This document shows positions 6,341 through 57,111 of a stretch of 64,000 nucleotides of DNA, piece after piece; the stretch's first letter is position 1; every line of letters begins with the position of its first letter. A program made the translations under genes and the position numbers. Source of the DNA: Hydractinia symbiolongicarpus (taxonomy: Eukaryota; Cnidaria; Hydrozoa; Anthoathecata; Hydractiniidae). The stretch spans positions 28,555,828 through 28,619,827 of the forward strand of contig NC_079876.1 of NCBI RefSeq assembly GCF_029227915.1. Direction: 5' to 3'. The notes below the pieces were generated by a model. The model was not told the origin of the DNA, did no database searches, and saw nothing but the letters and a program-made list of their open reading frames with translations.

Positions 6341-6663
6341 GTGAGAATAAATGTCGAGATTCTGTAAATGCAAGTAGTTTGCTCAGATAGTTCCCTGTCG
6401 GGCAGGCGAAACAGGGAAGAAACAGTACCTGGTCCTGATGATAAACTGATCATTCTCGTTGTTTGATAACCTACACCTATCGTTTTTCTATCGTACTGTT
6501 TAATAAAATATTCTTTCCTTAATTGCGTAACGTTAAGCCGCCCTAATTTTTATCGATTTTGCAAGCGTTGATAATTTGTTTTTTTTATACAAACGGGTTG
6601 CTGGAGGAAAAGAAACACAGTAACTCGTTTGCCCACAGGCACTATTTCCGCAACTTTATGCTA

Positions 6664-6793
6664 CTAGTCAGTAGCCCGTAGATAAATCCACGGGTTATCG
6701 TGTCCTTTATCTACCGCATTTCGTGTGTTTCACTACTGCAGTGACCATTTTGCGTGACAGACACACTGACGTATACGGGTATTATAATATAGA
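6664..6793 (-). mobile_element. Short non-autonomous Helitron, isolated copy
   Basis: On the minus strand it begins TCTATATTATAATACC after 6793 and ends at a CTAG at 6664-6667, preceded by an imperfect hairpin. It shares its terminal sequences with the 7887-8399 array. Boundaries fit the Helitron rule of insertion between A and T without target duplication. Confidence 0.7.
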
Positions 6794-7206
6794 TAAATAA
6801 GTAACAAGAAAAACCCGTTCATTTTTGGGAGTATTCAAAAAATTTCCGCAGATACAATATTTCGAGAAAGTGACAGAAACTCGCACTTTGTGGAAATTAT
6901 TTCACGTTGCAATTAAACCTTATCTACTAAGATTAGCCGTATAAATAAAAATTGGATCCTGGTTGAGAAAAACAAAAACACAAAATACAGCCTGCAGTTA
7001 CTATCGCGTAGGAAAATTCACCTGATACTTCCAGTTCACCGAAAACAAAGATGAAAGTTCCATTTAATTGCTAAGTACAGGTGGCTACGCCTTATGAATT
7101 AAATTTACGCATCATTTCCTTCCACCGGTGTTATTACAACTGCTTACTTCAGTAGAACTGTATTTGTATGAATATGTATTTTTATCTTTATTTTAGAATT
7201 TTCGAC

Positions 7207-10200
7207 ATGGAAGGTAGAAAGTCTCTCTGCAGAAATACAGTACGGCAATTAGTTTATGTAACAAGACTATCAAAACAATAGTTGTTGTAGTTTTACATAG
7301 CCAGATGTTAGTAATGTGTATAAAACATAGCCTATTTACCTATTGCTATGTTAAAAAAGAGTTGTCCGAATTTTTTTTAAAGTTATGGACTTGACTTGAT
7401 AACAACGGTTTTGTTTATTATTAGCCTACCATTCAGAAGTACAGTTCTCACGAGTTTGATAACTTGAAAGATGCAGTGAGAAAAAAGTCACCGTGCAATG
7501 TGTTAGTTGGCGTTATTGAAAAAATAATGGCTTTGAAAAATGTTTTGGTTATTAAAGTAGCTGATGGCACTTGTGAAGCATTTGTTCGTGTCCAGGAGTA
7601 CTGCGACAAATTATCCAAATATATCAGCTCTGGGGATATATTGTACCTAAAAAAAATAACTTTTGATGAGGATAAAATGGGAGAATTTGCCAAAAAATCA
7701 TTGATTTCGAAACATTCAAACATGGTGTTACCATATCCAGAGCATTGTAAGTAACTCTTAGTAATTTTATTTTATTTTATTTATTTATCATTTATTCGGC
7801 AAAATTAGGTAGGTGCAAGTATTTCTTGTTTATTAACCATTTATAACGATTTTCAAATTTCTTACGTTTCAAATTTTTAATTACTACTAGTCGGTAGCCC
7901 ATGGAAATATCCCGGGTTCGCCCGTCCTTTTTATACAGCATTGCGTCTCGCTAATTGGGCAGCTAAAATACCATTTTGCGTGACAGACAAACGTATACGG
8001 GTATTATAATATAGACTAGTCGTTAAACCGTGGAAAAATCCACGGGGTCGCCCGTCCTTTATATATCGCATTTCGTGTTTCCGTAACAAAAAGACAAACA
8101 GACGCACGAACACACAGACGGAATACGGCTATTATTAACGAGATAGCCGGTAGCTCGTGGAAAATCCACAGGACCGCCCATCCTTTATATATAGCATATT
8201 TCGTGTTTCCGTAGCACAACGTTTTTCTCGTGCACAAACAGACAGACGGAATACGGCTATTATTAAAGAGACTAGTCGTTTACCTGTGGAAGAATCCACG
8301 GGGTCGCCCGTCCTTTATATATCGCATTTCGTGTTTCCGTAACAAAAAGACAAACAGACGCTCGAACAGACAGACGGAATGCGGCTATTATTAAAGAGAT
8401 GTGCGGGCATCGTGATCTTAAATTCAGTCGCACGGTAGCACACTTTTAAAAGTCACTTTGTTGGTGTTGCTAATAATATGATCGATAATTTTCTGGTCGG
8501 CGAGAATATGTGTTGATTTCGTCCAAACATTTGTAAGATATCTTTGTATTTCATTGTTACTGGGTTATCGGTGTCGTAAAGATCTATGTTAAAGTCATCA
8601 GTAAAAAAACGAGACTATTCCGTTTTTTAAAAATTTCTGACAGTTTTGGTGCTTAAATTTATTTAGCTATTCAATTTTTTCACTATCCACAAAGTTCAAT
8701 TGATAAAATGTCCCTAATTACATGAATTTAAGATAATCTTCCGATGTTACTAGGTCAACGGTGCGGAGCATGTTTTTTTATGTATCATTATGTCAAAGTT
8801 CATATTGTTCAATATAATATAAAATCCATCGAACATTGAAGAAAGTGACTGAGCGTCCTGATGAGCTGTTTTGAGTTGTGTGATTTATTTTTTCTTTGTG
8901 TGTCCAGTAAATGTTTTGATGCGATTGATGAGAACCAGGCCACGGATTTTTCGCTATATCGCCTGACAAAATTATGTTAAAAGTTGCTATTGAATTACTG
9001 TAATATAAAATGCGTCTGTTTGATCGCTTCAGTGGAGAAAACATGAACATAAAACTTGTCTGTATAACCATAAAACTAGGATTAACTCCAAAATTATCAC
9101 ACCACCAAAACAGCATCCAATTGTTACCATACATATATCAAAACAGTCAATAATCCAATAAGCTAGTTAACACTTTAACAGGTACAACTCGTTTAACATA
9201 TAATGTTTATGTATCCACTCCACATTTACACGTCTGTTACACATCCGATCATCTCTCGCTCAAATTTTATAATGTTTTTAATGTTAACGTTCAAGCTTTT
9301 TAACGTATTGGAGACGTGTTTGAAAAATAACTCACAATATTGTCTTTCAACGTTGAAGCTATCCCATGAATGTAATGCCTTCTTATTCGCATTATCCTTA
9401 ACAATAATATGACAATATTTTTTAGGGAAAAAAATGTTTTATTTCGAACATTTGGAGGCACTTCATTCGTTTATCTACTGCAATTATAATATTGTTAAAA
9501 ATACATCTGATAACGACGAAAGCGAATGGAGCATCTTTTCCTTTAGCGAAAAAGGTTAGACTATTTCATCAAGGTGTAGTATTGTGTTAGTCTGAAATAG
9601 AAATTTTTTATCTTTTTTTTTTTAGATCCAGAGTTCATTATCACAATTGCAGTGAGTTAAATTACTTTGTACTTTTAACTCTACTGAGCGAAGTTTAGGA
9701 AGGGTGGAGGGAGGGGACTTGGAATTCTTTCTGCACATAGCACTTTATAAGATAGATAAAATGAAGAAAACTTTAAAGAAGATTTTCTTAACAAAATATT
9801 TCTGAGAGATCACCCAATTCCAACACTTTGATGCATACCGTAAATGCTCGATTAAGCGCCCCGGGCGTTTGTTTGAATGTTGGCTTTTAGGGTGGGCTCT
9901 AGATGGGCAGTAAGTCAAAAAGCGCTTATAACAAAATATCATTTTTCTGTTATGTTAAAGTCTGTTTTAAGGAAACTATATTGGTCGCAAAATAAAAAGA
10001 ACAACGGATATAGATGAAGCAGGTATAAAATAACATGCTTCTGAGCGTAAAGGTTTATGGTTAAATTTTCTCTGCGTCAATAAAATGATAGCGGATTTTT
10101 TAAACAAAAAGGTAGACAAACATTTTGACAAATGTTTTATGATGCATTTTAAATTTTAAAAATACTTGATTAAGTGCGCTTATTCGGGAGTGGGAGCTTA

Positions 10201-13200
10201 ATTGAACATTTATGGATGCTTAGTAATAGTTATAATGGATAGTTATAATGCGTTTGCTATAAACTTTGCAGTCCGATGAAGCGCCAGCGCACATGGAGGA
10301 AATGAATTCAATGCAGAAAGATAACCTGGTAAAAAGATTAACTTCTCCATAATATTTTACAGCGATTTACATTTGTGTTCTTATTAATGAATTACTTGTT
10401 TTATCACTAGGTTCAAATTCAAGAAGAAGAAAGCACTTCGGAATACGAGCCCAGCTCATTGGATAGTGAATCAGGTACAATTAAGCCTGTTAGCCTGTTA
10501 TTATTATGGGCTAAGATTTTAAATTAAACAAAGTCTGTTAAGTTGTCGGCCGTCCAATGAGCTCTGACAGGTTTGCGTACTTGTTTTATAGATATTTGTT
10601 CTAATTGCGACGAACTTCGAACCTCGACCAACGTTTGCAATGTATTAAGTCCGAAATTGTATTTAATCTTTTAAACATTCTCTCTTTCCTTGGTTATTTT
10701 TCCTTTGCTTTTTTGCATTTAGAAAAAGAAAGAGAAGATCAACATCTTATAATGGTTAGACATTATATCACCCTCTCTTTTAATCTATTTTCTGTTAAGC
10801 TTTTAGCCGGATTTTGTGTTTCACAAGGGAAATTTACAAATTACCCGGGCATATTATGATCAGATACAAAGTTAAGCTAAAAAACTGATAGGGGACCATT
10901 TAGTCCATTGTTTTCTACATAGCTTGAACTATTCCTGTCTACACTTTTGTTTTATTGTCTACTGAAATGTGACTTACTTATTTAGTATCATAAAGCTAAG
11001 AAAAGAAAACAGTCTGATGTCAACAAAAACACTGCAACTAACAGAAAGGTACAAATGCAATTCTTTTCTTGTTATTGTATCTATTCACACAAACATGGTC
11101 ACTAGTATTTCACATTTTAATCTTTTTTATTAGAATGGAAAAAAGGAGAGTGGGAAGATGGAAACATCAGACTCCGAAGAGGACATCTTCTCTCAACGCA
11201 AGGTATTATAAAACCATAACGATGTATTATATATTAAATATATATTTTATATATAATAAATTCAGCTGTTGTGCTCAATATCTGTTGTACAATTTTTCGG
11301 ATATATAGATTTACTGGTTTTTTAGACAAAGAAACTAAGACAAGCAGAGCAAGCTGCGGAGTACCAGCCACAAGACATTATTTGTAAAAAGCGTGAATTT
11401 CAACACCGCTTAAAAAAAAGGAATGCCCCTCTTAGAAAAGTGAAAACCGAATTGCAATTGAAGAAGCAGAGAAAGAAAGTTGAAGAACTCGTTTCCCAAC
11501 ATTTGGGTTCTGCTGATGCTATAACACAGCACTATCATGGTTTACAAAAAAAGTACTATATCTACAAGTGTTCTGTCTGTGGGGCGTTTGTGAGCGAAAA
11601 ATTAAGAAGACACTTACAAGAAAAACATAAATACTCATGGTCGGATGCCAGGCTACAGGAAACAAAGATGCGTGTATTTTTTCTGTGGTGCAACGCGACA
11701 AAACATGAAACACATTTACCGTTGCCGTGTATGGAGTGCAGCGAATGGCATACGAGGTAGAGTTATTTTCTAGCTATCGGAGCTCCTCTGGGCATCCTCA
11801 CCCTTGTCAGGTTTATTAGTAACTCTCTTTTCCTATATTGTATGGCTACGATACTTTGTAGCCTTTATATTAATCTTCAATTTAATTTAATTTAAAGACG
11901 TTTAGTAGTAAAGTAGCAATGTGAAAAAGGCTGTTTTGAACGTTTATTTTTTATTTTTTAATACAAATATTTTATTTTTTACCAAAAACTTTCCGTTACT
12001 TACTTACTGTTAATTCGTGTAGAGCGACCTAGACGCTGGATACAAATTGTTAACGCCCAATAAGGCGCATTGTGGCACTTTAGGCGGAGAGGGTGTAGTG
12101 GTAGCGCATTTGACTTGTAACCATAAGGTTTAAGGTTTGATTCCTCACTCTGCTCAATTTGAATATACTGTAGTCAGCCCATTTCAGCTTTTTAATGGCC
12201 GCTAATTGGCTTGTGTGGCAGGCAAACAAGTTAGAGCAATGCTATACTTATCTCTCGTACTTAGATTTCGAAAAGCGAAAACATCTCATTGCTTATACTA
12301 TATTTTAAGGCTAGATCATCATCTCAAACGTCATCCTTTTCATAAACAGATGTCTATGGAAGAAATAAAAGAAACAGTAGAGCAAGCTAGGGCTGAACAT
12401 TGGAGCAAAGGATTTGGCCAAAATGGCAGTAAAGTACCAAGTGAGGACAAAGTAACAGAAAAGTTTAAATCTAACCTAAATGTTGAGGCGGATGGCGACG
12501 ATTTTGTGTCAAGATCACAGCCAGTGCCTTTGCAACATGATCATCCAAGTTTGGACTATATTCCGTCAGGATCTTGCCGTCTCACTTCGTCCAAACGAAA
12601 GGAATGGGGTGTAAAACCTGATGATTTTTTTAGTATTTATTTTTCCACTGCTGATGACTTGCTAGACAATTTTCAAGAAGAACTGCTACAGTCTGGCCAT
12701 ACAAAAGACAACTCAACTCAACATAGAAACCAAGTTGAATTAATATGGACATCGATAAGCAAAGACCTCGTCATGTTTCCTATAAATCCCCTTTCGAACA
12801 TGCATTTGTTAAGGGATTATTACCATCGGCCTACATTTAAAACTATTGGCAAAAAGGATGGAGTGCAGGCGAGCACCTTGCGTGCACGTTATGGATCTTT
12901 AGGAATGTTTTTACAGTACCTCCGACGTAACGAGATTTTTGCTGGAATGAGCAGATTGCAGCTTTCCTCTCTTTCACAATCTGCTAATGATTTCAACAAG
13001 CAGTTAAACCCGTTGGTGAAGCAGAGAAAGGTCGAAATTAGAAAGAACAAGTGCAAGCAGCTGCTTCGACCAACGCATTTTATCAAGTATGGTGAGAGCA
13101 AATTTGTGCAACATTTGATTTCACAAGTGCAGAAGGGAGTTACAAAGAGGAGCCAATTTACAAGATCGTTTGCTATTCAATTTCGTGACTATTTGATCAC

Positions 13201-16200
13201 CAATTTAGTTATTGGAAACGGATTGCGTGCCTCTAACATTATCGAGCTGACAACAAAGGATGTGGATAATGCTACAGTTGTGGAGGGCTATGAAGGACAT
13301 AAAGTACTTTCCAACTACAAATACAAGACAAGTACAATTTATGGCGAAAAATTCATCGTCGTAAATGACATGCTCTATTTGCAACTTCAATTTTTCCTTC
13401 GCAATTTGAGATCAATAATTTCAAAAAACCCTTCATTAAAAGTTTTTCTTCCTGCCTCTGGAGCGCCGAAGATGAGCCAAACAAATGTGTCGGCAAGCTT
13501 AACGGCAAGTTTTAAACTTGCAAAAGTTTTATTTCAAAATGAATACCAACGCATTTCATGTACAAGAGTGCGATGTGGTCTGGCAACGTTTGCTTGTAAC
13601 GATGGCGGCTTTGAATCAGGTTTTTTTGCGAAGCATTTTATGAAAAACAAAGAACAGACGACGGACATGCACTACAACTTACTGTCGAATCGCAGACATG
13701 CGTTGAATATAGCCATGAAGCTATATGCTTCTTTCAACGGCGTCGATGGAGAGAAAATTACGATTGAACCAAAAGATGTCCATGAAATAGCCGATAAGCT
13801 TAAAAAATCTTCCGGGAATCTGAACAAAGAACAGATACTTCGCTGGTTAAAAAGTAACGATCCACATGTCACCAAAAGCGAGTTGGCTGATTTCGAGGAA
13901 ATGTTAGCTGAGTGTGATCAAAAACCAAGCGGAAATACTTCAAGTTTCTATGGTGCTTCGCAGCAGGTAAACAATTATTTTAAACGTTATGGTACCTAAA
14001 GCCACAAACAAAAACAATAAAAAACAATTATTTTGGCTACTTATTATTTTACTTTTTTTAACTTTTTTTTAAAGATTTATTTTAACCGACGCAATTGTTT
14101 TCAAACAAACTAAAAACTTTTGACTCATAGCTTATTCGCAAAAGTTAAAAAAGTGAAGTACAATACAGTTTAAATGAATTTCCTTAGGAGAAAGATATTG
14201 ATTTTATTTCCGTTGCTAACTTGGATGGTACTACCACAGAAAACGAAAAGGTTTGTTTTTACTTAACATACAAGATAACTAGCTGATAAACAGTGGTAAT
14301 AAAACTATCATGATCTTCATATAAACTTTAGCTAAGTAGCGAGCGCAGCTCTGAAGATGGCGACAGTGATAGCGAGAATGAAAGTTTTGTTAATTCCCAC
14401 GATGGCAGCTTAGAGGTATAGTCCGCAAACTACATTCTTTTAAAACAAGTTTATATGTTTTGGTTTTACACTTTTAGGCAGGTTAAATATTAGACACGTT
14501 TATAATTTACGCATGTACTTATTATAATCTACCCATAGGAGCAGTGGACAGATAAAAATGTTAAAAACATCAGCAAAAAAGTTTCTACTAGGACGAAGGT
14601 ATATTTTGCAATATTTGAAAAATATGTTTAAAAGCAAGACTAAACTTCAGATCACGAAGCAAGCCTTTTGGTTCCAAAGAGGAGTTATTTGAGGCAAAAA
14701 TATTTTGACGAGTATATAATCGACTTTTTTTCTATTTTAATGAGTAGACTTAGTAATTCGAAAATATAGAAATATAAATTTATGAGATCGTTCATGTGAA
14801 TATCGTAAGCATTCAATAAAAAGTGTTGTTGATTTTTAGGTCGAAATAACATCTGATTCCAGTGGCTCAGATATAGACTGCGATCATCTACAGGTAAAGT
14901 AATATCTTTAAGCAAAATGTCAATGGGTCTTACAGCTTTTTATAAATTTGATTTCGGTCATCACTTGGTTGCACACTATCCCTACAAACCCTTGAAACAA
15001 ACAACATGTATATGTAGTAACCTAGCTTGATAGCACACAAAAGACATATAGACAGCGACATGATATTTTCTTATACTTATCTATGTTATGTTATGTATCT
15101 GTCTATGTGTTTATCGTCTGGATTGTTTAGAGTGATATCCAGGACGTTCTGTTTCAATATGACCAAAGGCGACCAGGAGATCTCATATATGCACGACAAA
15201 GTGGTGGAAGGATTGCCTATTTGATGTGTGCTCACTTTTGTGAGCCATTGATTATCCGAAAGCCATTTGATAATGAATTTAGTGTCGAAACATTTAAAGA
15301 TGAAGAAGTGGCTTATTTTATAAGTAAAATTAAGAGCAGTATTTTGCGCAAACATCTGGAAATGTTTACCCCAACGAGTGTTAAATTTTTCGTACTGGCC
15401 CTAAGAAGAAAATATTGGTCTAATGTTAAGCTTAATTTCACAAAATGGAAGAGATTCAGAAAAGAAGGGTCTAGCATGATTCAAATGTGTAAAGATTAGT
15501 AAGTTTGCTGCTACTACTGTTTTTATATACGTTTTCACTCAAAAGCAGCACAGGATGTGCAAAAACCTAATCTTGAACCCCTGATAAAGTATATACATAT
15601 TGGCTTTGTTTGAAAATTCCTTTTTCTTTCTTTCTAGCAATGATTTTTCTGTTACCTCGGTGAGTGTTTTATATTTATGTTTTACTTTAGAATAAATGGA
15701 AAGCCATGTCATACTTTTTAAATTTTTCTGTTCCCGTACAAATTGTTATTGATATGAAGTTTCAAAGATATTTTAAAGGTCTATCTATATAGAGCTCTCT
15801 AGAGAACGAAAAATTATAGTGATAAATACGAGTCAGAAAAATACATAGTTTATGACGGTATGTATCTCTTTACGTGTTTTTCTGACAATTCGATATTTAA
15901 TAGCCTGAGCAAAGAAATAAAGATAATGACCTCCATCACACTAGTCAAACCAGCGATTACAAAGAAGAGGTAAAACAAATTAATGCTGTTTTGAAAACAG
16001 AGCCTGTATGCATTATTACCGACTATCATTATGTATATTTTAGTCAAGTAGCGCCAACCAAGACTTATCGCAAAAAGACAATGCCAAATCTGCGGTCTGC
16101 GTCAAGCAAACGAAGGTAATTTAGATGCAATGAATTTTGAAAAAAAAATATCATTTAAATAAAATCTTACCTAAAAAATCCAAATTATTTTGTGGTTGTA

Positions 16201-18148
16201 GAACTATGAATTAAGAAAGGCTACCGTCTATGTACCACCAACAGTATGCGACACTCCATCATTTATGCATGACGTAAGTGATTTTTTTGTTTGTTTTTAT
16301 TTGGTTTGGTCTGCGAGCATACTAGATTGAATAGTCAGAATGACTTTTTGAATTTAGCCAAACGAGGTGAAGCAACAGAATCCAAAAGCATCAGAGGTAA
16401 TAATATGGTTCTAATCATCATTAAGTCATCGAACTACCTTTTTTTCACTAAACACATTCCATTTTGGAATGTTATAGGTTCTCCAATCTTGTAACGACCA
16501 TTTTACGCGTCCAAAAGAAGTAAGTAACACGGAGCCGGCATTACACTGAATAATCATGCTGTTTACTCTTTAAATGTTATGATTGTATCAAATAAAAGTA
16601 TTACTATTTAGGAACAGGCTTTGGGGGATGAGCAATGTTGCTTGACAAATGTAGATCCCTCAAGCAATTTCATTTGCAAAAAGATCGACAGTTATATAGG
16701 TAGATCGCTAGTTCATGCAGTCCATAACAAACTCTTCCAAATATCTTCCAATGTGAGCACGCTGGTAATAAAACACTGATCAATTTTGTTGATATTCTAG
16801 GCCATGGTGTATTTGCTTTAAAAAAATTCATACCTGGCGACTTTCTTCTCCAGTATCCTGGAAGTTTAGTGACCGCGGAAAAGGGTGATAAACTGGAAAA
16901 ATACTATGAAAAGAAAGGAAAAGGATGCTATCTTTACTTTTTTAATTACCATGGAAAAAAATTATGGTAAGAATTTCGTTGGATTATCAAAAGTACGCTG
17001 ATGCACCTTTCTACACATTTTTTAAATATATTTTTAGTGTGGATGCTACAAAAAACAATCGGTTGGGCAAATTTGTCAATGACAGCCAGAAGTCCTACGC
17101 CAACAGCGTAATGAAAGTAAAGACGTTTGGTGGGAAACCTTTTCTTTGCTTATACGCATTGAAAACTATTGAGAAAGGTTCAGAGATCAGGTAACTATCT
17201 CTAACAAAGAAATGTAAACAATTAAATCCTGTCATCAATTATTACATTTTTTACAATTTCTATTTCTAGATATAGTTATGGCGAAACTTCTGGTCTGACT
17301 TGGCGAAAAATGGTAGGAGAAATAAAGTTAATTTAACTGTTAAATAAGGCTATCCTTTTCATAAAAACCGTGTTGTTGCTTTGGCCACCTAATACAACCA
17401 CCACTTTATGTTGCGGAATAAATTTACAAAAATTAGCTAATTGAAAATATATAATTTGTCATTAAAATTAATATAAAGTCATTAAAATTTCAAAATATGT
17501 TAGTTTTTTTCAAAACACATAAGTGTAATTTCCAAAGTAAACAAAAAAGAGCCTGCCATAAATTTGACATCGCACATACCGGACGAACATGCCAGAATAT
17601 GTGCTTCGGCCATCTAAGTCTGCAATGCAACAAAAACGTATTGTGCGCACACGAAAATTGCAGTGCGGCGCTTTGCTAACACATTTACCTAATATTTGAT
17701 TCAGCCTCAGTCTTGAATACATTTTTATCACAAATATCAAGTGTAAAGGTACTACAGATACATTTGCGATCATTGTTAAGGACGATAGTTTTTCAGCATG
17801 ATCAACAATAAAATGAAAAGTTACTTACTTTTTCTGTACATGTTATCTTGATGAAATTTATCTGATTGTTTCTTCAAATTGTATCGTTTATAGGCAAACT
17901 ACAAAAGGCCATTTTCCTTGACAACTCTGGTAAGTAACTCTCATTTGCAATTTGCAGTATGAAGCAACCGCCTTTTTAAACACTTTGTTCTACTTCTTAA
18001 TTAGGGTAAGATGGATGAATCAGTAGACGCCAACTTAGAGGTAATCAAGATTTATACCACTATTATTGTGGCAACTAATTCGTGTTATTTAAAAAACTTT
18101 CCATTTCCATTTTAGCTATCACCTGATCGAGAATTAGATTTAGGTTAA
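7207..18148 (+). CDS. Crypton-like tyrosine recombinase fused to a KMT5A-like SET domain (29 exons)
   Basis: Exons were assembled from GT-AG sites, and every junction preserves phase: 7207-7257, 7425-7746, 9426-9554, 9626-9651, 10272-10328, 10411-10474, 10592-10641, 10986-11048, 11134-11202, 11326-11756, 12310-13966, 14188-14250, 14332-14415, 14539-14598, 14840-14893, 15131-15498, 15638-15659, 15904-15969, 16044-16115, 16202-16273, 16358-16396, 16478-16519, 16612-16699, 16801-16966, 17038-17190, 17270-17312, 17894-17929, 18005-18040, 18116-18148. The total is 4416 nt, divisible by three, with no internal stop. Order of parts: OB-fold-like exon 2, acidic micro-exons, zinc-finger-like exon 10, recombinase exon 11, further micro-exons, SET domain in exons 23-26. 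I infer a DNA-binding, possibly domesticated, chromatin protein. Alternatives are two adjacent genes, or a mobile element carrying both domains. Exon 7's donor is the weakest call. Confidence 0.72.
7425..7746 (+). CDS. Exon 2: OB-fold-like N-terminal segment
   Basis: The exon encodes about 107 residues. It alternates strand-like hydrophobic stretches with the pattern VLVGVIEKI...VLVIKVADGT...YISSGDILYLKKI, which resembles the OB-fold layout of single-strand DNA or RNA binders such as the RPA family. This is inferred from pattern only. It follows a 17-residue first exon starting at the ATG at 7207 and ends with a strong GTAAGT donor. Its T remainder joins GG at 9426 to make a Trp codon, which ties it to the rest of the gene. 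Confidence 0.5.
7887..8015 (-). mobile_element. Non-autonomous Helitron, array copy 1
   Basis: First of four head-to-tail copies within intron 2 of the recombinase-SET gene. On the minus strand it reads TCTATATTATAATACC... to ...CTAG, with a GGG/CCC hairpin about 11 nt before the CTAG. It abuts the next copy with no spacer. Confidence 0.8.
8016..8142 (-). mobile_element. Non-autonomous Helitron, array copy 2
   Basis: On the plus strand it starts CTAGTCGTTAAACCG and ends in GGCTATTATTAACGAGA. The hairpin CCGTGG/CCACGG lies at about 8028-8046. This is the mirror of Helitron ends: TC at the 5' end, hairpin plus CTAG at the 3' end, on the minus strand. Confidence 0.8.
8143..8271 (-). mobile_element. 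Non-autonomous Helitron, array copy 3
   Basis: Same family. Its 3' CTAG is mutated (TAGCCGG at about 8144-8150), but the hairpin region and the AATACGGCTATTATTAAAGA terminus are kept. Confidence 0.75.
8272..8399 (-). mobile_element. Non-autonomous Helitron, array copy 4
   Basis: Same family. It has CTAG at 8272-8275, hairpin arms around 8285-8303, and the terminus TATTATTAAAGA at 8399 followed by T, as expected for A|T insertion. Confidence 0.8.
8400..9425. other. Intron 2 remainder, no feature seen
   Basis: AT-rich intronic sequence between the Helitron array and exon 3. The minus-strand frame at 8793-9134 has no recognisable domain and lies in the intron. Confidence 0.5.
11326..11756 (+). 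CDS. Exon 10: zinc-finger-like segment before the recombinase
   Basis: This exon encodes 143 codons plus two bases. A Lys/Arg-rich helix-like stretch is followed by a C-x2-C...H-x4-H-type finger (YKCSVCGAFVSEKLRRHL, then EKHKYSW). A second C-x2-C (LPCMECSEWHTR) has its histidines (LDHHLKRH) in exon 11, so the intron splits a finger. The donor AG|GTAGAG joins the G at 12310 to make Arg. Such fingers usually bind DNA, and here they may target the recombinase. Confidence 0.7.
12084..12155 (+). mobile_element. tRNA-like SINE head in the recombinase intron
   Basis: 72 nt resemble a tRNA: an A-box-like GTGTAGTGGTAGCG, an anticodon-loop-like CTTGTAA (TGT, threonine-like) and a B-box-like GGTTTGATTCC. 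The acceptor pairing is incomplete, so this is a SINE or tRNA pseudogene and not a functional tRNA. It lies between exons 10 and 11. No second copy with the same body was seen in the window. Confidence 0.55.
12310..13966 (+). CDS. Exon 11: Crypton-like tyrosine recombinase domain
   Basis: One exon of 552 codons carries the catalytic domain. Visible residues are box I Arg in NGLRAS (codon at 13226), a basic stretch YKYKTS, box II Arg in CTRVRCGL (13571), His in AKHFMKN (13634) and the nucleophile Tyr in DMHYN (13673). The first position of the usual HxxR is Thr here, which is tolerated in some Crypton-type enzymes. The family cuts and rejoins DNA through a 3'-phosphotyrosine. The true exon start is the acceptor at 12308-12309; the upstream ATG at 12206 lies in the intron. 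If the donor at 13967 is not used, translation ends at 13999. Confidence 0.85.
14016..14021 (+). promoter_or_regulatory. Possible internal poly(A) signal
   Basis: AATAAA lies 17 bases after the TAA (13997-13999) reached when exon 11 is not spliced. It could end a recombinase-only transcript. A single hexamer in AT-rich DNA is weak evidence. Confidence 0.35.
15131..15498 (+). CDS. Exon 16: unrecognised 122-residue segment
   Basis: A longer exon between the micro-exons, with a mixed charged sequence (SDIQDVLFQYDQRRPG at the start, MIQMCKD at the end). No domain is recognised. It ends with a strong GTAAGT donor in phase 2 and joins a 22-nt exon at 15638. Its helical and basic character could suit a protein or DNA contact, but that is speculation. 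Confidence 0.6.
16612..17312 (+). CDS. Exons 23-26: SET domain, KMT5A/SET8 type
   Basis: Four exons encode a SET lysine methyltransferase fold: GHGVFALKKF with the AdoMet-binding GxG, GCYLYFFNYHGKKLC, VDATKNNRLGKFVNDS, then YSYGETSG. These match in order the SET8/KMT5A elements GRGVFA, CVDATKE-GRLGRLINHS and YDYG. NHS is NDS here, and the YDYG Tyr is kept as YSYG. KMT5A enzymes use S-adenosylmethionine to monomethylate lysine, classically H4K20. Whether this one is active is unknown. The exon phases (1, 2, 2, 0) join without gaps. Confidence 0.85.
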
Positions 18149-19920
18149 TGTTTCGTTTGTATTTAATGGAAGGTCCGTTTATGTAAATGTTAGATTTCAC
18201 TCTATATGTTTAGATAACTACAGGGTCAGCGGACGTTAATTTTTTCTATCTCTTTAATTTTTAAATATGCTACGCTAAAAGTATTGAACGATATTATTTT
18301 TAACTGCCATTTTGTATATTGCGTGTATATATGATTATACTCATTACTGCGTATCTAACTATTAACTTTTAGTTGGTTCTTACAAACTAAGATTTGGATA
18401 GTTACAGTACTATTTTAACCTAATTTAGTGATAATTTCTGATCTTTGGCGAAACTATAGCGCTGTCCCTGTAAATGTATTTATTCAATCTGTAATCAGTG
18501 TTGATTTAAAGATAATTATAGTTACGAAATAATTAGCTTGTAATGGTTGCAATGGTTGTTTTGATTATCCCAGTAATAATCCTTTGTAAACAATTATGCA
18601 AAACTGCACCATTACTTTTAGTTCATCTGTAGCCAATTATTGCTTAGTTCTTGTTACACGATAAATTAAAAGACACACAAAATGTAGCATATTTTGGTAT
18701 TCTTGTCAGCGTAATTGCTGGGAAACCTTTTCTTTGCTTATACGCTCTTGTTGTTAGTAATTTAAAAAGTGGCGGCTGATCATCACAATGATGGAATTGA
18801 TCTGGTAGATCTGTGACAGAAAAAAAACCTAGAGGGTTTTGAGAAAATTAAAATTCTTTCTCTTCCAAGAAAAGAATTTAGAAGGAAACAACGCAACAAG
18901 TGAATAGTTGGATAAAGCATCAACAAAGAGTAGACTTCGACACATATTTTTAAACCTATTTAAACCTGCAACAATGCTTTTTTTGCATTGATCGAGTCGG
19001 GTACTTTGATGGAGTTATCACTCTCCAAAGATAAGGCTGGGTGTAATTAAACCCCATTGCCGATTTAACTATTTGGAAAAGATAGTTTACCTCATCTATT
19101 ATAAAAAGAATAGGTACGATTTGCGGATTGTTTAATACTGGTGGATTCATTTGAGATTTCTGGTCAAACACTGGTATGATGGCAATCGCAATGCAAATCA
19201 ATTGCAGACAGCACAGTGCGCGATACGGATTTGTGAAGTACTGCACCACTTATTGCGACAAAGTAAAAAAACAATATATGTATATAAAATAAGAATAACA
19301 ATAAAGTGAACTACACCTTCATAGTGTTTTTAGAACAAAAGGATATGTTTTTATCAAAGAAGTTACTGACCATAAAAATGTACCTTCCCCAAATAAACTA
19401 ATTAATGTTTCGCCCAGAAATGCATGTTGTTATGTATTTTAAGAGTTAGCACAAAATCTGAAAAATAAACAGTTAACAACACTTTAAATATTGCATAGTT
19501 CTTCCAGCAAAAAAATGTAAAATGTAAAAAATATTCTTGCAAGGAATAAATTATTGCATGCAGTCCTTCCCCACCAAACTTTACACAAAATGTCAAAATG
19601 AACGGTTTGTGAGAAGTAGATCCGTATTAACAAAAACAGTTTTTTCAGCAACTTGAATACTGTCTTTAACCAAAAAATTTTTTTCACAAAATACAAATCT
19701 CATACAGTAGACTGCTACGAAATTTATATAAAATATTTACAGAAAGTAAAAGCATGGTGTAAAATCTAATTAGAGGGTCCAAGGAGTCTCTATTTATATA
19801 TATGTATATATAGATAACGAGACAGTCAAGTAATCGAGACAAATTTAGGATATGACCGTAGGCTGTCTGGTGCGTTTATCATTATTTCGCACTTTTTAAA
19901 TTGGTTATTCTACTTTGTCT
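18149..19920. other. Intergenic after the recombinase-SET gene
   Basis: No exon chain was found. At about 18719-18746 there is a short near-identical copy of SET-exon sequence (GGGAAACCTTTTCTTTGC, then TTATACGC, also at 17132-17159). The rest is AT-rich with no feature seen. Confidence 0.55.
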
Positions 19921-25629: not shown

Positions 25630-26021
25630 TTAAGCTAAGGCGCCACGAGGAACATTTTCATGCGCGTGCTATGCAACATTGCTGCATAGCACGCGCATAA
25701 AAAAAATTACTCGTGTCCCATGCCTATTTTTCACTGCAATGCAGCAAAAAAATGTTGCATGGAGCAAACATTTTGCTCCACAACTTCGGGGACAAAATAG
25801 ATCTGAATCTATTTTGCTCCCGTGCTCCGGGGACAAAATGTGCTGAAAAATTTGTTGTGGAGCAAATGTTGCACGTGTCCCCACCTTCTGCAACAAATAT
25901 TTTACAAAATTATTTGAGGCATTATTTTATTGACCAATCAAATCACAGAAAGATATAAACAAGTTTTTTTCTTGAGAAGTTGAACTGCAAGTGAAGAGTA
26001 GCTAGTGAGAAAATAGCGAAA

Positions 26022-27170
26022 ATGGCGGATGAAAAGAAAAAACTATCAGACGAGGAGAAAGTTACTTTAATAAACTTTTATAAAGCGAACCCAACGTTAT
26101 GGGACAGTGGGAATATATATTACAAAAATAAAGACAAAAAAGAAGCTGCGAAAATAGACCTTGTCACTGAATTTGAGGGGGCGTATAGCTGTGATTTTCT
26201 AGAAAAAGCATTCCATTCTCTTCGTTCATCGATGCTCCGTGAAGTTAAACGTAATGCTGGAAGCGAAGTTCCATCGAAAAAGTGGAAGTTTTATGAACAA
26301 ATGGAGTTTATCGTAACTGATCTAACAAAAGAAAAGAAAAAAGCGCAACTTTCGTCCGACGAGTTGGAAGAATTGATTGATTTTTATCGTGAAAATCCCG
26401 CGCTTTGGAACCACACTCTACAAGATTATAGAGACAGAGTGTTGCGCGAAGCTCTGATGGTCAAACTGAGTGAGCGTTTTGATGGGAAGTATACCGTAAA
26501 CGAGCTCAAAACGTCATGGCATAACGCATTGACAAAGTATAGAAGTGAGCGCAATAGGGAGATTGGATCAAGATCCTCTGGTGCAGGTGTAAACGAAGCA
26601 TATTTTTCTACCTGGGACCATTATAATCAAATGGATTTCGTTGAGATTACTTGCGATATGGATGAGACCGTCGATACAATGAACGAGGATGAACCACGTA
26701 TCCCTGCTCCTAAAAAACGACGGGAGAAGAAGATGACGGAGGAGCAGTGTGCCAAAGCCGAACTGTGGAAAGCGTTGACAACTTCCATCACACAAAGGGC
26801 TGATCACCATGAAATCCGGCCGCAACAAGCTTCTACATATGGATGCGAAGCGCAATCTGCTGTCGAAAAACGTGCCCAAATTTTTGGAAGTACAGTGGCC
26901 GACAGTTTGGTCCAGTGCGAACTAAAAGATTGGCCAAGGTTGAAGAAAAAAATCATGGATATTTTTTTCGAGTATGAAGAGCAGAAACAACACCAATCTA
27001 TGCCTACCAACCATCATGCTCGTATGTTCGCAGCTTCAACGTTTACTCCATACACCCCATCATATCCCATGGCAAATACATATACTGGTATGCTGCAATC
27101 GCCACCTCTACCTTCTCAAAATCAGCCGTATTCACCCGCAAATTCATCCTGTTCGAACGATACGTTTTGA
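26022..27170 (+). CDS. Harbinger accessory DNA-binding protein, two MADF domains
   Basis: A single intact 382-residue frame. Two MADF (Myb/SANT-like) domains lie at about residues 15-105 (LINFYKANPTLWDS...WKFYEQMEFI) and 120-208 (LIDFYRENPALWNH...WDHYNQMDFV), then a basic stretch (PAPKKRREKKM) that may act in nuclear localisation, and a Pro/Ser/Tyr-rich tail. In Harbinger systems the Myb-like protein binds the ends and helps the nuclease enter the nucleus. It is transcribed towards the nuclease gene, 110 bp away. The duplicated MADF is the main oddity. Confidence 0.9.
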   Translation: MADEKKKLSDEEKVTLINFYKANPTLWDSGNIYYKNKDKKEAAKIDLVTEFEGAYSCDFLEKAFHSLRSSMLREVKRNAGSEVPSKKWKFYEQMEFIVTDLTKEKKKAQLSSDELEELIDFYRENPALWNHTLQDYRDRVLREALMVKLSERFDGKYTVNELKTSWHNALTKYRSERNREIGSRSSGAGVNEAYFSTWDHYNQMDFVEITCDMDETVDTMNEDEPRIPAPKKRREKKMTEEQCAKAELWKALTTSITQRADHHEIRPQQASTYGCEAQSAVEKRAQIFGSTVADSLVQCELKDWPRLKKKIMDIFFEYEEQKQHQSMPTNHHARMFAASTFTPYTPSYPMANTYTGMLQSPPLPSQNQPYSPANSSCSNDTF

Positions 27171-27280
27171 TACGTTACGTTATGGTTGGCAGACATTTTC
27201 TGGAGTAAAATAAATCAGAAAAATATATTAAACGTTCAGTAAATCTTATCATTTTTTATTTATCCTCGCAAAAAATAAAA

Positions 27281-28552
27281 TTAAATGTCAACTCTAGCGC
27301 AATGCCACTGCCAGCGTACAGCACCTTCCATTACGAAATACTCCGTGAACTCGTCTCTTATTGCTTTGGCTTGATTACTAGATCGATTGCCGTAAATGTC
27401 ATTGGACAGTGAAAACCATGTGCCAGTAGGAGTATCTTCTCTCCAAGCACCTTCGATAATTTCACCACGCTCATTCTCTCGGTCGACAAGACCAATTGGT
27501 AGCTCAATTTTGCCCACAGAACTTTTGCTCCTCTGCCAGTTATGCAATGCCACTGTTGCCATTGTGATGGTAGAAACCTTTTCTGGTTCTAAGTTTATAG
27601 GTCGACGAAAAATGCGCCACCGATTTGCCAATATCCCAAATCCGTTTTCAGAAATTCTTCTCTTTCGTGACAGTCGATAATTGAAGATGCGTTTGTTTAC
27701 TGTCAGATTTTTTTGTGGATAAGGCTTCATCAGGTAATTCTTAAGAGGAAACGCATCATCTCCTGTTATCACATACGGCACTTTGTTGTTTCGACCTGGT
27801 AAATTGCAAACCTCTGGTAAATTTAGCGATCCACTGTCTAGCGCCTTCTTTAAATTACATTGGTCCCATATACCTCCATCAGAATTTCTACCGTTCGCTC
27901 CAACTTCCACATAAAGAAACTCATATTCTGGCCCGACAAGAGCCATGAGCACTACACTGTCTGTCCCTTTATAGTTTCGGTAATGAGACCCTGAATTTGG
28001 GGGCTGCTGAATGACGATATGCTTCCCATCGAGAGCACCTAATCCATTTGGGAAGTTCCAACGCTCATTGAACTTTCTGGAGATATCTAGCCATTCCCCC
28101 TGTGTTTTCGGAGTTGAAAGGAAGGTTGGACCCAACCTCTTTATGATAGCTTCAGATACCTCCATAACAGCTGCTGAAATTCTTTTTCTTGACACTCTGA
28201 ATTGAAATTCTAAAGACCTGAAAGTCTCACCAGTCGCTAAGTAACGTAGGGCCACGCAAACGAGCTCAGCTGGTGTGATAGAATTCCTCATATTTGTATC
28301 TTGTTTCTGCAAATCCTCAGAAAGAAGACCGACTAGGTATTCGAATTGAGCGTTATTCATACGTATATACCCTCTACATTTTTTCTCATCGTTTTTTATT
28401 TCGTTGAAGATTGTATGAAAAGCGCCAAGACACTCTCTATTCCCAAGCCACGGTTGCACCCAGCAATTTCTTGGTGGTTCTTCACGATCTTCCTCTTCTT
28501 CTTCGTCCAACAAAAGTAAAGCTAAAATAACTTCTCTGTTTATTCCTGCCAT
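27281..28552 (-). CDS. Harbinger DDE transposase (HARBI1-like nuclease)
   Basis: An intact 423-residue frame with the DDE_4-type core: Asp175 in GALDGKHI, Asp266 in VITGDDAFPL and Glu302 in SENGFGIL. The 424-codon length is normal for the family. An acidic N-terminal stretch (LDEEEEEDREE) precedes a helix-turn-helix-like region (FRSLEFQFRVSRKRIS). It catalyses excision and insertion together with the MADF protein. The start follows a Kozak-poor ATG at 28552, just inside the inverted repeat. No lesion was seen, so it could be active. Confidence 0.95.
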   Translation of the reverse strand: MAGINREVILALLLLDEEEEEDREEPPRNCWVQPWLGNRECLGAFHTIFNEIKNDEKKCRGYIRMNNAQFEYLVGLLSEDLQKQDTNMRNSITPAELVCVALRYLATGETFRSLEFQFRVSRKRISAAVMEVSEAIIKRLGPTFLSTPKTQGEWLDISRKFNERWNFPNGLGALDGKHIVIQQPPNSGSHYRNYKGTDSVVLMALVGPEYEFLYVEVGANGRNSDGGIWDQCNLKKALDSGSLNLPEVCNLPGRNNKVPYVITGDDAFPLKNYLMKPYPQKNLTVNKRIFNYRLSRKRRISENGFGILANRWRIFRRPINLEPEKVSTITMATVALHNWQRSKSSVGKIELPIGLVDRENERGEIIEGAWREDTPTGTWFSLSNDIYGNRSSNQAKAIRDEFTEYFVMEGAVRWQWHCARVDI

Positions 28553-28660
28553 ATTTTAATCACACATGAACTCAATAAAAAACTTAAGGATACGGTATAC
28601 CCTTTGAGCATGATTTTTTAACTTCGATTTTCGAAATAATCTTGCAGCAAATAAGATGTG

Positions 28661-28745: not shown

Positions 28746-31700
28746 TTATATATATATTTTATGAAAATTTGTGACAGAATACTATGTGAGATTTGAAATT
28801 TTGTTTACTTTATTGATGGTAAAACAGCATGCAAATTGCTAAAAGGACTTTATTAATTTTAGATTTAAACACCGTTATTTTGTTGGCATTTTGTCTAAAG
28901 TTTGGTGAGGAAGGACTGTATGCAATATATCTAATGTTTTATTGCATTATAATTTGTCCTTGCAAATCCCTTTTTTTACACCTTAGATAAACAATTCTGT
29001 CAGAGGCACAATTTATTGTTTATTTTTCACATTGTGTGTCAACCTTTGGCAGGGTTTGCAATAAACTAACTGATTTTAACATATACAATGAGAGAGATTT
29101 GTGTTTGACATTGATCAGCTTTTTTGTATATATGTGGCGATTTGAGTGATTTAAATTTTATGGGTGAGATGTATGTTGAAATGCTTTAGGAAACTTCTTT
29201 CCGAATAATTTTCGCATTTGTCAGATGGTCAGAGCAAGTAATTTTAGTAGATTTAGATTTTAAATGTCACATAAATACTGCAGTTCCTGAAAACCTTCAA
29301 TTTTTTTGGTCATTTATATAATAATGCAGATGTAAGATGCGCACTCCTGTATTGTTTGTTTTTTGATGGACGCATATCTGCTACATAAATTAAATGGAAT
29401 ACAGTGGATTCTTCCACGGGAAACAGCTAGTACCAAGTACAATCGCAAATATCTCATCTCTCATACCCAGCATTTACTTCTCACAAAAATGTATCATCAC
29501 AGCATCTATTGAAAGAAAGTCAAAAGAATTATGCAAGAAAAAGAATGGTAGTGTTTTATATGGGACATTATTTGAAGATATGAATAACTTTAGTATTGAG
29601 GCAATTTGGAATGAGTTGAAGGTATCTCAGCCATTTTTAATAGATGTATTTGCTGCTACATCTGGATTACAACTTAGCCCCGATAGATTGCCAGAAGTTG
29701 CAAAAGTCAAGTTTTGCTTCATATACTCTATCCTAATGAATATTAAATGGGAAAAGCTATAACTTTTTCAAAGACTTAACACAGTTTCACTAATAGAAGG
29801 CGGTGCAAGTAAAAAGGTAATCTTTTGTATCTTTTTTAGCACTTTGGCAAAAATTTAGCATAGAGAAAATAACCAAATTTCACAAGTCCTAAAAATGATT
29901 TTCACTTATCAAACCTTTTCTAAAACTAGCAGAGTATAAATGTTATTAGACCATTTACTCTTGTTTAGCTTCAGCAAAGGTTACACAAGCTTGGAGTAGC
30001 TCTATCATACACCTCCCGTTCATACCTGTTGAATTTGATTGGAGGACATTTTTGTGACAAAGCAGTTAATGCAGTCAAGGAAAACAAATCATTACGTGGT
30101 ACTGGTGACAATTGGGATTTGCGAGTATTAAAAGGCCACATGACCAAGGAACTTCAAAATGAAGATATCCATTTATTTGCCTCAAATCTTTACATTAATA
30201 GAGTAGATTTTAACCATTTGTCCAATGATGCCCCAATTCGTAATTTAAATGACTGTAATCGTTGCGTTTTCCTGTTGAATAGGAATGATTTAACAAGGCT
30301 GAGAAATAATTTCATGGTTTTAGTTGGCAGAATTTGCTTTGAATACCTTCCGAAGTTCAAATTTTTGAAAAAGGTAATACCTAAACACATCCAACATGAA
30401 TTTTCATATGAAATGGCAAAAAGCTCAGTTATCATCAGTTTACCAATTATTGATGCTAATGAAGTGAAATATGATGATTGTGTGAAAATCCTCAGAACAT
30501 ATGAAAATTGGATTTTTGAGATCTACAAAAAAAGTGGCAGAATAAACGAAAGGGAGGTTGAAAATCCTATTTTTCCTAAAGACGATGCATCTAGACCTGA
30601 TCAACCTGGAGCACATTTTCAGTCAAGTGAAGATGATCCTATGCGAGAAATGAAAATTCCTTTTGCGGGAGATCAATTGACCCGTGTAAGGTTTGCTGGT
30701 GCTAAGGATCTACTTGCAGATGCACATACACCAACTGACAGGTTTGAGCACTGCTCTCCGTTCAAACCAGTGATGTGGCACTGTAAAGCATCTTTTCTAC
30801 AGGGATGTTATAGTATGTTATACGACAGCACTTCATTTAATCAACAAGGCACATTAAAATTCTTCAGAGAGAAATATAACCGTCGAAATGTAACTCCAAC
30901 AAAAGTCTTAGATTCGTACGATGGTTGCGAAGAATTATTAATAAGTGTTGGAAAAGCATATATTGTTGTAGGGTTGATGAAACACTTTGGAATGGCCAGC
31001 CTTGATAGTTACCCTACATTGAATAAATTTAATTCAAATATGTGTCACAAAGAAACAACTGAAATACAGAGCTACTACAATGAATCCATTGGATCTTTTG
31101 TTGACAATTACATTTTTCAGAAGGGGCAATCTCCTGAACCAGGTGAAGATGAAGATTATATAAAAAATTATGCATTGTTGGTGTCATATCTAACTATGAT
31201 TCTACTGCAACTGAAAGATACAGCAGCGGAAGGTGATGGTGAAAGAAATTTGACCAATCAAAAATTGCTTATGCCCATATTCAAGTCATTTAATACACAC
31301 AGCAAGTATGCATTGGAGATGTTTGTGTCCATAGCACAAATAGAGTGCCTATCAACACCACGTTTGTCTGCACAACTCAAGTGGGGCTTTTTTGTAACTG
31401 GACGGGTGGTATGGGTCGAAATATTGAAGATGATTTAGCTCAAGAGATTTCCAACAACATTAGTAAGAATGTAGTAAAAAGATTAGGTGCAAACAAATCC
31501 TTAACATCTATCAGCACAATTTGCAAAGCAACAACAGGAATCAAGGCACTTCTAGAAAACCTTGACAAAGTTCTAAATGTACCAAAAAACAGTTCAAGAC
31601 ACACAACCACAAGCCCTTATGAGGATGAATTACAAATGATCAATGATCTACTACAATTAGATCCATTTGAATATACACCTGGACGCTTTCATCCATCATT

Positions 31701-31932
31701 TAGAAATATAAAAAGAAGCCCTCAGTTATACCTTGACACTAATCATTTCCATCAATGGCTTACAAAGCATAAAAAGCAAGTTTCTGGAATGTAAAAAATG
31801 TATATATATATCACACACAGGTTAGTTTACACACAAAAAATAATTCCATAATAAGCTAAGAGTAGAATATATAAGAAAACTAAAATTGATTAATGTATGT
31901 AGTAACATTACCTCACATTGTGTATTATGGAA

Positions 31933-33867
31933 TTACTTCAGTGTGGTATACTTCTCAATAACTTTAAAAACTCTGCTACTAACAAATTCCTCCCACAACT
32001 GATATTCTAACAAGCTTTCCACATCGTTGACATACTCAATGTTAATAATAATTTCTGAAAATTTTTCAGCCAAGTTTCCTGTATCCACAATGTTATAAAA
32101 CTCCATGGCTGCATCATGTGTGGCTTGGTCGTGATCTGCCAGTATATTATCAAGTTCATCTGATAGTTTCTTTAAACTCTCATCTGATACTTCTCTATAT
32201 TTAATACGTTCCTCTTTTTTAGGTTCTTTCAAGAGTGAAGAATCACAATTGCTACAGCATTGATCCTGGGGTTGATAATGATATCCAAAGTGAATCATCA
32301 ATACTTTACGAAGGCATTGTGTCGTAGTACAAAAATTCACCATATGTTCATCAACTTTATTTTGTTTTAAACGCCTACTGCTGATATCATGCCCGGTATA
32401 GTACAATCTTGCCAATGCTTCTTGCCCTCTTCGACCAGCCCGTCCAAATTGCTGCATATAGTCTTCGATGGTACTTGGTGGACTTATATGGAAAATTTGT
32501 TCGATATAGGGTGCATGAACACCCATACCAAGCGCAGAAGTTGCTATTATAACGCGAATGTTTGAAACTTCTTTTGCAACTTCAAGGAGAATTTCGTTTT
32601 TCATTGACTTTGTTTGTGGTGCGTGAAATTGCACAATTAAACAATTGCTAGGGTTTGTTATGTTTTCAACATACATGTGTTCCTTTAATACATTTTTTAT
32701 TAACTTGTATATATACCCACAAAACCTTAATCCACAATATATAATAGTTTGAGGAAAACTTTTCTTTAGTGATTTTAGCTCCTTTGCAAGTGGCAAGATG
32801 ATATTTTCAATACCTTCTTCACCAACTTTTCTCTTTTCTTTGCACATGTATACATTTTTTCTGTTTGGATTAACAGATATTATTGTTGGGGTTTTCATTC
32901 CAAGTATATGTTTTATTTTAGCCAGTGTTTTTTCTGTTGCGGTAGCTGTAAGTGCGATAAAAGGTACCTCTCTAAAAAAAGCTCGCATTGCTCCCAAGTT
33001 TTCAAATTCTTTGCGAAATTTTTTTCCCCTTAAAGATAAAGAAATATATATATATTTTAGGATTAACATTTTGTTAGTTATATATAATAATTTTGTTAGT
33101 TATATATAATTTTATATCTGTTTTATATTATATATATACATTTTTGTTATTCAGTTGTTGTACAGATATTCTTGTCTTTGTTATTTTATTAGCATTTTGC
33201 AATTAACATTACATTATTGCATATTTCCTTATTAGAGAAATTATTCTTGTATATATATATATATACATATATATATAATATTTAACTTTTTTAAAGTTGT
33301 AGCTATATATATACCTATATAAATAAAGTAGTACTTACCAGGTGTCCAAGCAGTGAGCCTCATCAATGACACATTTTTGACATTTTTTTGATAAATTTTC
33401 GTTTTCATCAAAGTTCTTCCTCTCTCACTCAATATAGCCTCTGGATGGCAAAATAGGAAGTCACAATGACCATCCAATACAAATGATGGTAAGACATCTT
33501 CTGTTTTATCACTCAGACAGATATCCTCAAACAACGTCTGTACAGCATTCTCCTCAAAATTTAAGTCACGTAGGATGTAGCAAGTCATTCCTACTTTTTT
33601 CAGAAAATTCACTTGATCTTCCATAATTGCGTTTAAACAAGTGATTACAATGACAATTGAAGATTTTTCGTCTTTGTTTCTCATGACATCTGGTAACAGT
33701 TGAAAAATTAAAGATTTCCCATATCCTGTTGGAAACACCCCAATGACATCCTGTCCTCTTACTATGGACTCCAAGCACTTGACTTGTTTGGGTTTAAAGT
33801 TAAGGTCAGGAAAATTTCGACACTCCAGAGATCTTTGAATTTTCTCCAAAATTGCGAAGGGTTCCAT
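31933..33867 (-). pseudogene. RecQ-like DNA helicase, one-base lesion before DEAH
   Basis: Two exons on the minus strand: 33867-33339 and 33028-31933. Helicase motif I is GVFPTGYGKS, III is ALTATATEKT, V is ATSALGMGVHAP and VI is QQFGRAGRRG, followed by a short cysteine cluster (QCCSNCDSS) like a reduced RecQ zinc module. The motif II DEAHC codons (33350-33364) lie in a different frame from the upstream exon, so one base is missing just before them (33365-33382). The exon junction rebuilds Trp-Gly-Lys-Lys correctly when read in the DEAH frame. There is no HRDC domain. It is convergent with the DUF6589-like gene, 138 bp apart. Confidence 0.8.
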
Positions 33868-34211
33868 CGCATCATCTGTTATTTTTGACGTAGATGTAAA
33901 ATTTAGAAATTCTATTCTATAATATTTAAAATAAGAATAATAATAAACATTTAAAGTGGCTATCCCAGAAAATCACAAAAACCTATAGTTAGTGGATTGT
34001 TTCCACTATACAATACTATATGTATCATACACCACAAAATGACTAGAAAGCCATTAAGGGTTGTATTTACTCTGTAATTTTACAGTGTAGCTATAGGTAG
34101 CGCTGGCTAAAGTACCCTCCCGCCACTAGAACACCATCTTCGATCGAAAACGTCACGCATACATTACGTTTCTCTGCATGCTTAATTTTGGGCGAATTTC
34201 AGTCTGTTGTA
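33868..34211. other. Intergenic, no gene seen
   Basis: Possible promoter side of the RecQ-like gene. Only a small palindrome, CTGTAATTTTACAG, near 34070-34085 is visible. Confidence 0.4.
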
Positions 34212-55189: not shown

Positions 55190-55593
55190 ACTAGACTTTA
55201 CTGTAAACTTCTGGAGAATTTTTAAGTTCCAAAAAACACGGGCTTACAGGCAGAAAAGTGGCAAATCATTCCGTTAGAAAAACATCGATTGGAAAGCTTT
55301 TGGATGCAAATGTCCCCGAAGTTTATGTAGCCCAACACAGTGGTCACAAAAATATTGATTCGTTAAGAAATTACAAATCAGCTAGTACCACTCACCGTTA
55401 CAAAATGTCAAACATCTTGAGCTCAAATAATAACCAACTTGACGTACATAACCAATCGACAGCTCTTAATACTTCCAGTTCCACGCAGTCTTCCACCCTC
55501 TCTTCATTTTTTTCCGGAGGAAATTTTAACAATTGTACATTTAATTTTAATACGAACACTCCACCAGCGAAACGACAAAGAATTGAATTTTAA
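55190..55593 (+). pseudogene. Tyrosine recombinase C-terminal fragment (Crypton-like)
   Basis: The frame reads KKHGLTGRKVANHSVRKT, with box II HxxR intact, then VYVAQHSGHKNIDSLRNY, with the third box His and the nucleophile Tyr, and ends in a Ser/Asn-rich tail (FNNCTFNFN) and PPAKRQRIEF. Box I and the N-terminal half are missing. It resembles cnidarian Crypton-like or KCTD/ZMYM-type recombinase ends. The family differs from the 12310 enzyme, whose box II is TRVR. Confidence 0.75.
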
Positions 55594-56978: not shown

Positions 56979-57111
56979 TTCTGCATAAGAGATTAAAGCG
57001 ATTACGTAAGCACGATAGCAAAGATTAAACTACAATCACTATTAATTCGAGGTGAAAAAAAGAATTGTTCTAGTGAATAAATCTATTATCCTAAAAATTT
57101 AGGTTTAAGAA

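Follow-up and report, generated by a model that had tools for sequence, protein, structure and literature searches.

A gene of the hydrozoan Hydractinia symbiolongicarpus raises the question of whether an animal tyrosine recombinase (YR) can share one protein with a SET methyltransferase domain, and whether such a protein belongs to the host or to a mobile element. The gene, LOC130630515, lies on the forward strand at 7207-18148 of a 64,000-nucleotide stretch of contig NC_079876.1 (the window, to which all positions refer), where a first-pass annotation of the sequence had placed zinc-finger motifs, a recombinase and a KMT5A-like SET domain in one predicted protein. This proposal was borne out, with the three elements found in one gene model and in a paralogue of the same architecture, and the recombinase-SET fusion is real at the level of gene models. 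With a probability of about one half, we consider LOC130630515 a host-resident, multi-exon member of a hydrozoan gene family based on a YR, encoding a recombinase-derived chromatin protein similar in logic to SETMAR.

The gene was rebuilt from splice signals ahead of any database search, guided by the coordinates of the first-pass annotation. Twenty-nine exons with GT..AG introns were joined in phase with no internal stop and one terminal stop, as had been reported, with a length of 4380 nucleotides (nt) and 1459 amino acids (aa) compared with 4416 nt and 1471 aa in that annotation; phase 0 was found in 20 of the 28 introns. Without exon 22, this splice-site model is exactly the database protein P0001 (LOC130630515 isoform X2, 1445 aa, "uncharacterized protein"), which contains both junctions singled out for checking in the first-pass annotation, 13966/14188 (GASQQ|EKD) and 16699/16801 (DSYIG|HGV). 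Exon 22 (16478-16519, + strand, 14 residues), missing in isoform X2, is likely a genuine, optional exon, because it has a counterpart in the paralogue P0002 (SEVMDVYNIHFTREK against SEVLQSCNDHFTRPK). Furthermore, a conserved PSFMxDPN block precedes the SET domain in both LOC130630515 and this paralogue, which is located on another contig. Intron 2 harbors a 128-nt tandem repeat (7983-8399, 3.3 copies), and a related sequence occurs ahead of the gene at 6663-6793.

The recombinase (about 12539-13753, + strand) is encoded in exon 11 (12310-13966) behind the end of zinc finger 2, and was recognized by its fold and by family profiles on its relatives. The Pfam Phage_integrase profile scored 16.9 bits on the LOC130630515 model, under the cut-off of 27.1 bits, which was cleared by the relatives P0012 and P0017 (28.4 and 31.3 bits, respectively). 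A search of PDB sequences with the family profile retrieved no recombinase, its single row being a zinc-finger chain (E 0.75), and a fold comparison was therefore needed. In this comparison, the predicted structure of the recombinase part matched tyrosine recombinases and thereby shows the catalytic fold of that superfamily; in a library of viral structures, one unnamed row under E 0.001 was followed by two phage integrases (1.7e-3 and 2.5e-2). Catalytic positions were assigned against XerD by motif and by eye, on a model that is weak at residues 429-469. The tyrosine nucleophile (Tyr864, 13673-13675) and the two arginines of the superfamily (Arg715, 13226-13228, and Arg830) are present in 20/20 rows of the family alignment, as is the beta-hairpin lysine (Lys748, 13325-13327), and these four residues are invariant although identity to exon 11 drops to 36%. 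Conversely, both classical histidine positions are replaced in every row: the HxxR motif reads TRVR in LOC130630515 (13562-13573), with Thr827 at the His position (Thr in 19/20, Ser in 1/20), and Asn855 occupies the second His/Trp position (13646-13648; Asn in 20/20). The earlier description of a Crypton-type enzyme with Arg, Arg, His and Tyr consequently holds for the arginines and the tyrosine, the noted histidine being elsewhere than at the classical catalytic position, and Crypton membership is unproven. Since the R-H-R-Y tetrad given for Cryptons (PMC3212892) is incomplete in this family (R-T/S-R-Y), we class the enzyme among the tyrosine recombinases on the basis of its fold, and not among the Cryptons. 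DUF3504 was not among the three Pfam families found at E <=1, a search in which Phage_integrase itself was below cut-off. Elsewhere in the window, an open reading frame (ORF) fragment at 55207-55590 (+ strand) displays the classical recombinase motifs HSVR, SGH and Tyr (Phage_integrase 18.2 bits, below cut-off); none of the 20 family proteins matched this fragment at 1e-3, and it probably represents a different, Crypton-like lineage.

The SET domain is encoded by exons 24-26 (16801-17312, + strand; introns 16967-17037 and 17191-17269) and scored 41.6 bits with the Pfam SET profile, for which the cut-off is 22.4. Among the 60 best of 68 PDB matches, KMT5A/SETD8 accounted for the best 14 rows (top E 8.8e-22), KMT2A being next (2.2e-14). 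The positions of KMT5A Tyr245, Tyr271, Tyr334 and Tyr336 are all Tyr in LOC130630515, and that of Asp338 is Glu. A segment of 31 nt at 18715-18745 is 97% identical to part of SET exon 25 (17127-17157), located 1588 nt downstream of that part, and is too short to explain.

Ahead of the recombinase, exon 10 (11326-11756, + strand) encodes a basic region together with zinc finger 1 and the CxxC portion of zinc finger 2. The zinc-finger-like motifs of the first-pass annotation are sustained by the conservation of both CxxC pairs in 19/20 rows, with a Pfam C2H2 match below cut-off. Its OB-like segment in exon 2 (7425-7746, + strand) found no support: Pfam returned no family at E <=10, a PDB sequence search gave seven weak rows (best E 0.072) with no OB protein by name, and the proposed structure prediction yielded a single-sequence model of low confidence (predicted local distance difference test, pLDDT, 38) with no usable fold. 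Between recombinase and SET, exon 16 (15131-15498, + strand) encodes a domain matched by no Pfam family, and common to P0002, P0017 and the Hydra protein P0019 (pairwise BLASTP 8e-30, 6e-09 and 7e-09, respectively).

A protein search with the whole model retrieved three proteins from 5561 candidates (P0001, P0002 and P0003). P0002 corresponds to LOC130626107 of H. symbiolongicarpus (1243 aa), in which zinc fingers, recombinase, exon-16 domain and SET follow one another as in LOC130630515. Identity between P0001 and P0002 is highest in the catalytic part of the recombinase (144/200, 72%), followed by SET (96/154, 62%), the N-terminal part of the recombinase (119/204, 58%), the zinc fingers (60/107, 56%), the C-terminal tail (12/25, 48%), the stretch behind the recombinase (31/70, 44%), the exon-16 domain (50/121, 41%), the region ahead of the zinc fingers (20/57, 35%) and the linkers (27/80, 17/57 and 14/60; 34, 30 and 23%). 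Recombinase and SET thus stand out against the linkers, a pattern suggestive of one protein under selection.

When the zinc fingers and recombinase of P0002 were used as query in a second search, 20 proteins were retrieved from 4345 candidates. Five of these bear names, all of them hydrozoan, namely Hydractinia LOC130630515, LOC130626107, LOC130624937 and LOC130636789, and Hydra vulgaris LOC105844710. In LOC130636789 (P0017), a partial N-terminal SET precedes the recombinase and the exon-16 domain; this SET scored 20.9 bits in Pfam, under the 22.4 cut-off, and matched the LOC130630515 SET at 3e-15 in pairwise BLASTP. The remaining 15 proteins gave no SET or exon-16 match, which says little because they resemble single-exon calls stopping at the end of exon 11. 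As the SET domain occurs on either side of the recombinase, or is absent in the isoforms retrieved, the core common to the family is the recombinase. A third search used the SET part as query and could detect only proteins of about 795-2530 aa; it returned P0001 and P0002 from 398 candidates and missed P0017; given this limited sensitivity, no absence of the fusion elsewhere is inferred from it. The co-occurrence of recombinase and SET, which the first-pass annotation had proposed to seek in other cnidarian proteomes, was found in P0001, P0002 (by the SET-part search) and P0017, all from Hydractinia. A viral or bacterial origin was also considered and set aside: scans with the family alignment gave 21 pattern stretches in viral_contigs and 11 in genome_contigs, none a confirmed relative, and phage records held no relative of P0012, in scans that rest on two peptide patterns and could miss distant relatives. 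Among the open-access papers listed in literature searches, no title or abstract opening mentions a fusion of recombinase and SET.

Several explanations may account for these observations, among them both of those put forward in the first-pass annotation, a domesticated recombinase that writes a chromatin mark and a mobile element with its own histone modifier. If LOC130630515 is a host chromatin protein, its zinc fingers and its YR, with a clamp-like fold, would recognize particular sites in DNA, which probably derive from the ancestral element. The SET domain, tethered there, would act on a lysine near the bound site, either of a histone (H4K20 as a first guess) or of a different protein. 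A Tyr-DNA link may still be formed by the YR, full recombination being uncertain because both histidines are lost. A host gene is favored by the many introns, the optional exon and paralogues that are far apart in sequence, and by protein clusters listing one contig each, from which unannotated copies would escape. Some findings weigh on the other side. His299 is important for KMT5A activity, with no H299A substitution named in the papers listed on this point, and its position is Asp in P0001 and P0002, P0017 likewise reading NDS and not NHS; moreover, only the SET core aligns, and the arginine anchor of KMT5A (Arg188/Arg192) falls upstream of the alignment start. In KMT5A this anchor holds the enzyme on the nucleosome (PMC7893823), and methylation by the SET domain of LOC130630515 may therefore be lost or altered. 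In the isoforms retrieved, SET is missing from Hydra P0019, in which recombinase and exon-16 domain are present, and Hydractinia P0012 lacks both SET and exon-16 domain. Finally, the catalytic tyrosine is kept in 20/20 rows, unlike in the domesticated Cryptons treated in PMC3212892, and this agrees better with a recombinase that is active than with a relic that only binds DNA.

The latter point leads to the main rival, which we consider possible but less likely, namely that the locus is a mobile YR element, Crypton-like in a wide sense, whose zinc fingers and YR would move it and whose own SET module would alter chromatin at donor or target sites or counter silencing. The invariance of Arg, Lys, Arg and Tyr despite the low identity of some rows speaks for this, as do the size of the family, a single species having four loci or more, the precedent of some oomycete Cryptons carrying a C48 peptidase as cargo enzyme (PMC3212892, in the passages on that group), and the patchy counts of KMT5A-like genes (PMC10368294, main text), a pattern often produced by mobile elements. 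A spread of 29 exons over 11 kb speaks against such an element, as does one contig per protein cluster; protein searches revealed several diverged family loci, with no second copy in the window, where tblastn of P0001-P0020 and exon 2 gave no match outside 7200-18200 at 1e-3. Furthermore, animal Cryptons are described without a C-terminal domain in the passages of PMC3212892 that treat them, and LOC130630515 has two downstream domains. The gene is not bracketed by any pair of repeats at least 24 nt long, the only lengths sought, a result that is neutral since animal Cryptons, according to the same passages, have no terminal repeats (PMC3212892). A host scaffold devoid of enzyme activity, in which a YR-derived DNA binder is joined to a pseudo-SET binding domain, would account for the replacement of both histidines in 20/20 rows and for the NDS motif of P0001, P0002 and P0017; we regard it as distinctly unlikely, as the Arg, Lys, Arg and Tyr of the YR are invariant and all four KMT5A tyrosine positions are Tyr. 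Least credible, with very little left in its favor, is a merging of neighboring recombinase and SET genes by gene prediction: the evidence consists of gene models and P0017 has its SET on the opposite side of the YR, so that there is no single fixed order, but a paralogue on another contig keeps both the order and the PSFMxDPN block before SET, and the splice-site and database models agree.

The preferred reading, a host chromatin protein derived from a recombinase, finds its nearest analogy in SETMAR of anthropoid primates, in which SET is fused to the Hsmar1 mariner transposase, an enzyme of the DDE/D type. Both combine SET with the enzyme of a mobile element in one protein, and in both the part that binds DNA can be expected to direct the SET domain. 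However, the transposase of SETMAR is catalytically inactive (PMC8704517), whereas the YR of LOC130630515 keeps Arg-Lys-Arg-Tyr; in addition, two Hydractinia paralogues share their domain order, and their SET is KMT5A-like. The Crypton-derived DUF3504 genes (KCTD1, KIAA1958, ZMYM2-4, QRICH1 and WOC) are likewise animal multi-domain genes with a YR-derived domain, but according to the passages of PMC3212892 devoted to them all have lost the catalytic tyrosine and the second arginine, both invariant in the LOC130630515 family, and these passages name no SET, which LOC130630515 has. The Crypton YR in an ATF7IP intron of birds possibly retains intact catalysis and might be translated within a chromatin-related protein (PMC3212892); the account given there reports no fusion transcript, and the protein has no SET, in contrast to the Hydractinia database protein that joins YR and SET. 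KMT5A/SET8 itself, the H4K20 monomethyltransferase, is the closest PDB SET among the matches listed and shares the catalytic tyrosine positions, differing from LOC130630515 in NHS for NDS, in Asp338 for Glu and in an arginine anchor that cannot be aligned with this protein of 1459 aa.

A further relationship concerns the KMT5A-like genes reported in the main text of PMC10368294, of which Hydractinia has up to 65, Hydra 24, S. purpuratus 61 and Nematostella a single one, the Hydractinia and urchin genes being similar at both SET and C-terminal ends. As in LOC130630515, KMT5A-like SET domains of the same species occur there in longer multi-domain proteins; in these the SET is mostly N-terminal, in contrast to its C-terminal location in LOC130630515. 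P0017, with an N-terminal SET and a recombinase of the LOC130630515 type, fits this description (PMC10368294), and the words "recombinase" and "integrase" have no match in the main text of that 2023 article. Because LOC130636789 combines a partial N-terminal SET with the recombinase, our comparisons suggest that part of the KMT5A-like expansion is this recombinase family; that the C-terminal ends of the urchin genes are recombinases as well is a prediction and not a result. A broader proposal, for which we would claim a modest chance, is that an animal YR lineage with a rewritten active site (Arg-Lys-Thr-Arg-Asn-Tyr), active on DNA and carrying a KMT5A-like SET, was first mobile and later partly domesticated, and that its spread constitutes the KMT5A-like expansion in hydrozoans and urchin.

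The window also contains other features. A MADF ORF (+ strand) adjoins a DDE_Tnp_4 ORF (- strand) at 25995-28555, which we take to be a Harbinger-like transposon pair, and a DUF6589 ORF (+ strand) adjoins a RecQ-like helicase in two ORFs (- strand) at 29969-33972. Mobile remnants include a hAT dimerisation domain (36508-37476, - strand) and a reverse transcriptase fragment (57109-58047, + strand).

A fusion of SET with the enzyme of a mobile element was previously known from SETMAR, with a dead transposase. In the present family, the nucleophile and three further catalytic residues are kept in 20/20 rows and a SET domain is attached in two paralogues, which makes it possible to test whether action on DNA by an animal recombinase and the writing of chromatin can be combined in one protein. 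The family would also provide KMT5A-like genes with a concrete origin; some of these genes are switched on early in Hydractinia embryos, and they have so far been described as predicted H4K20 methyltransferases.
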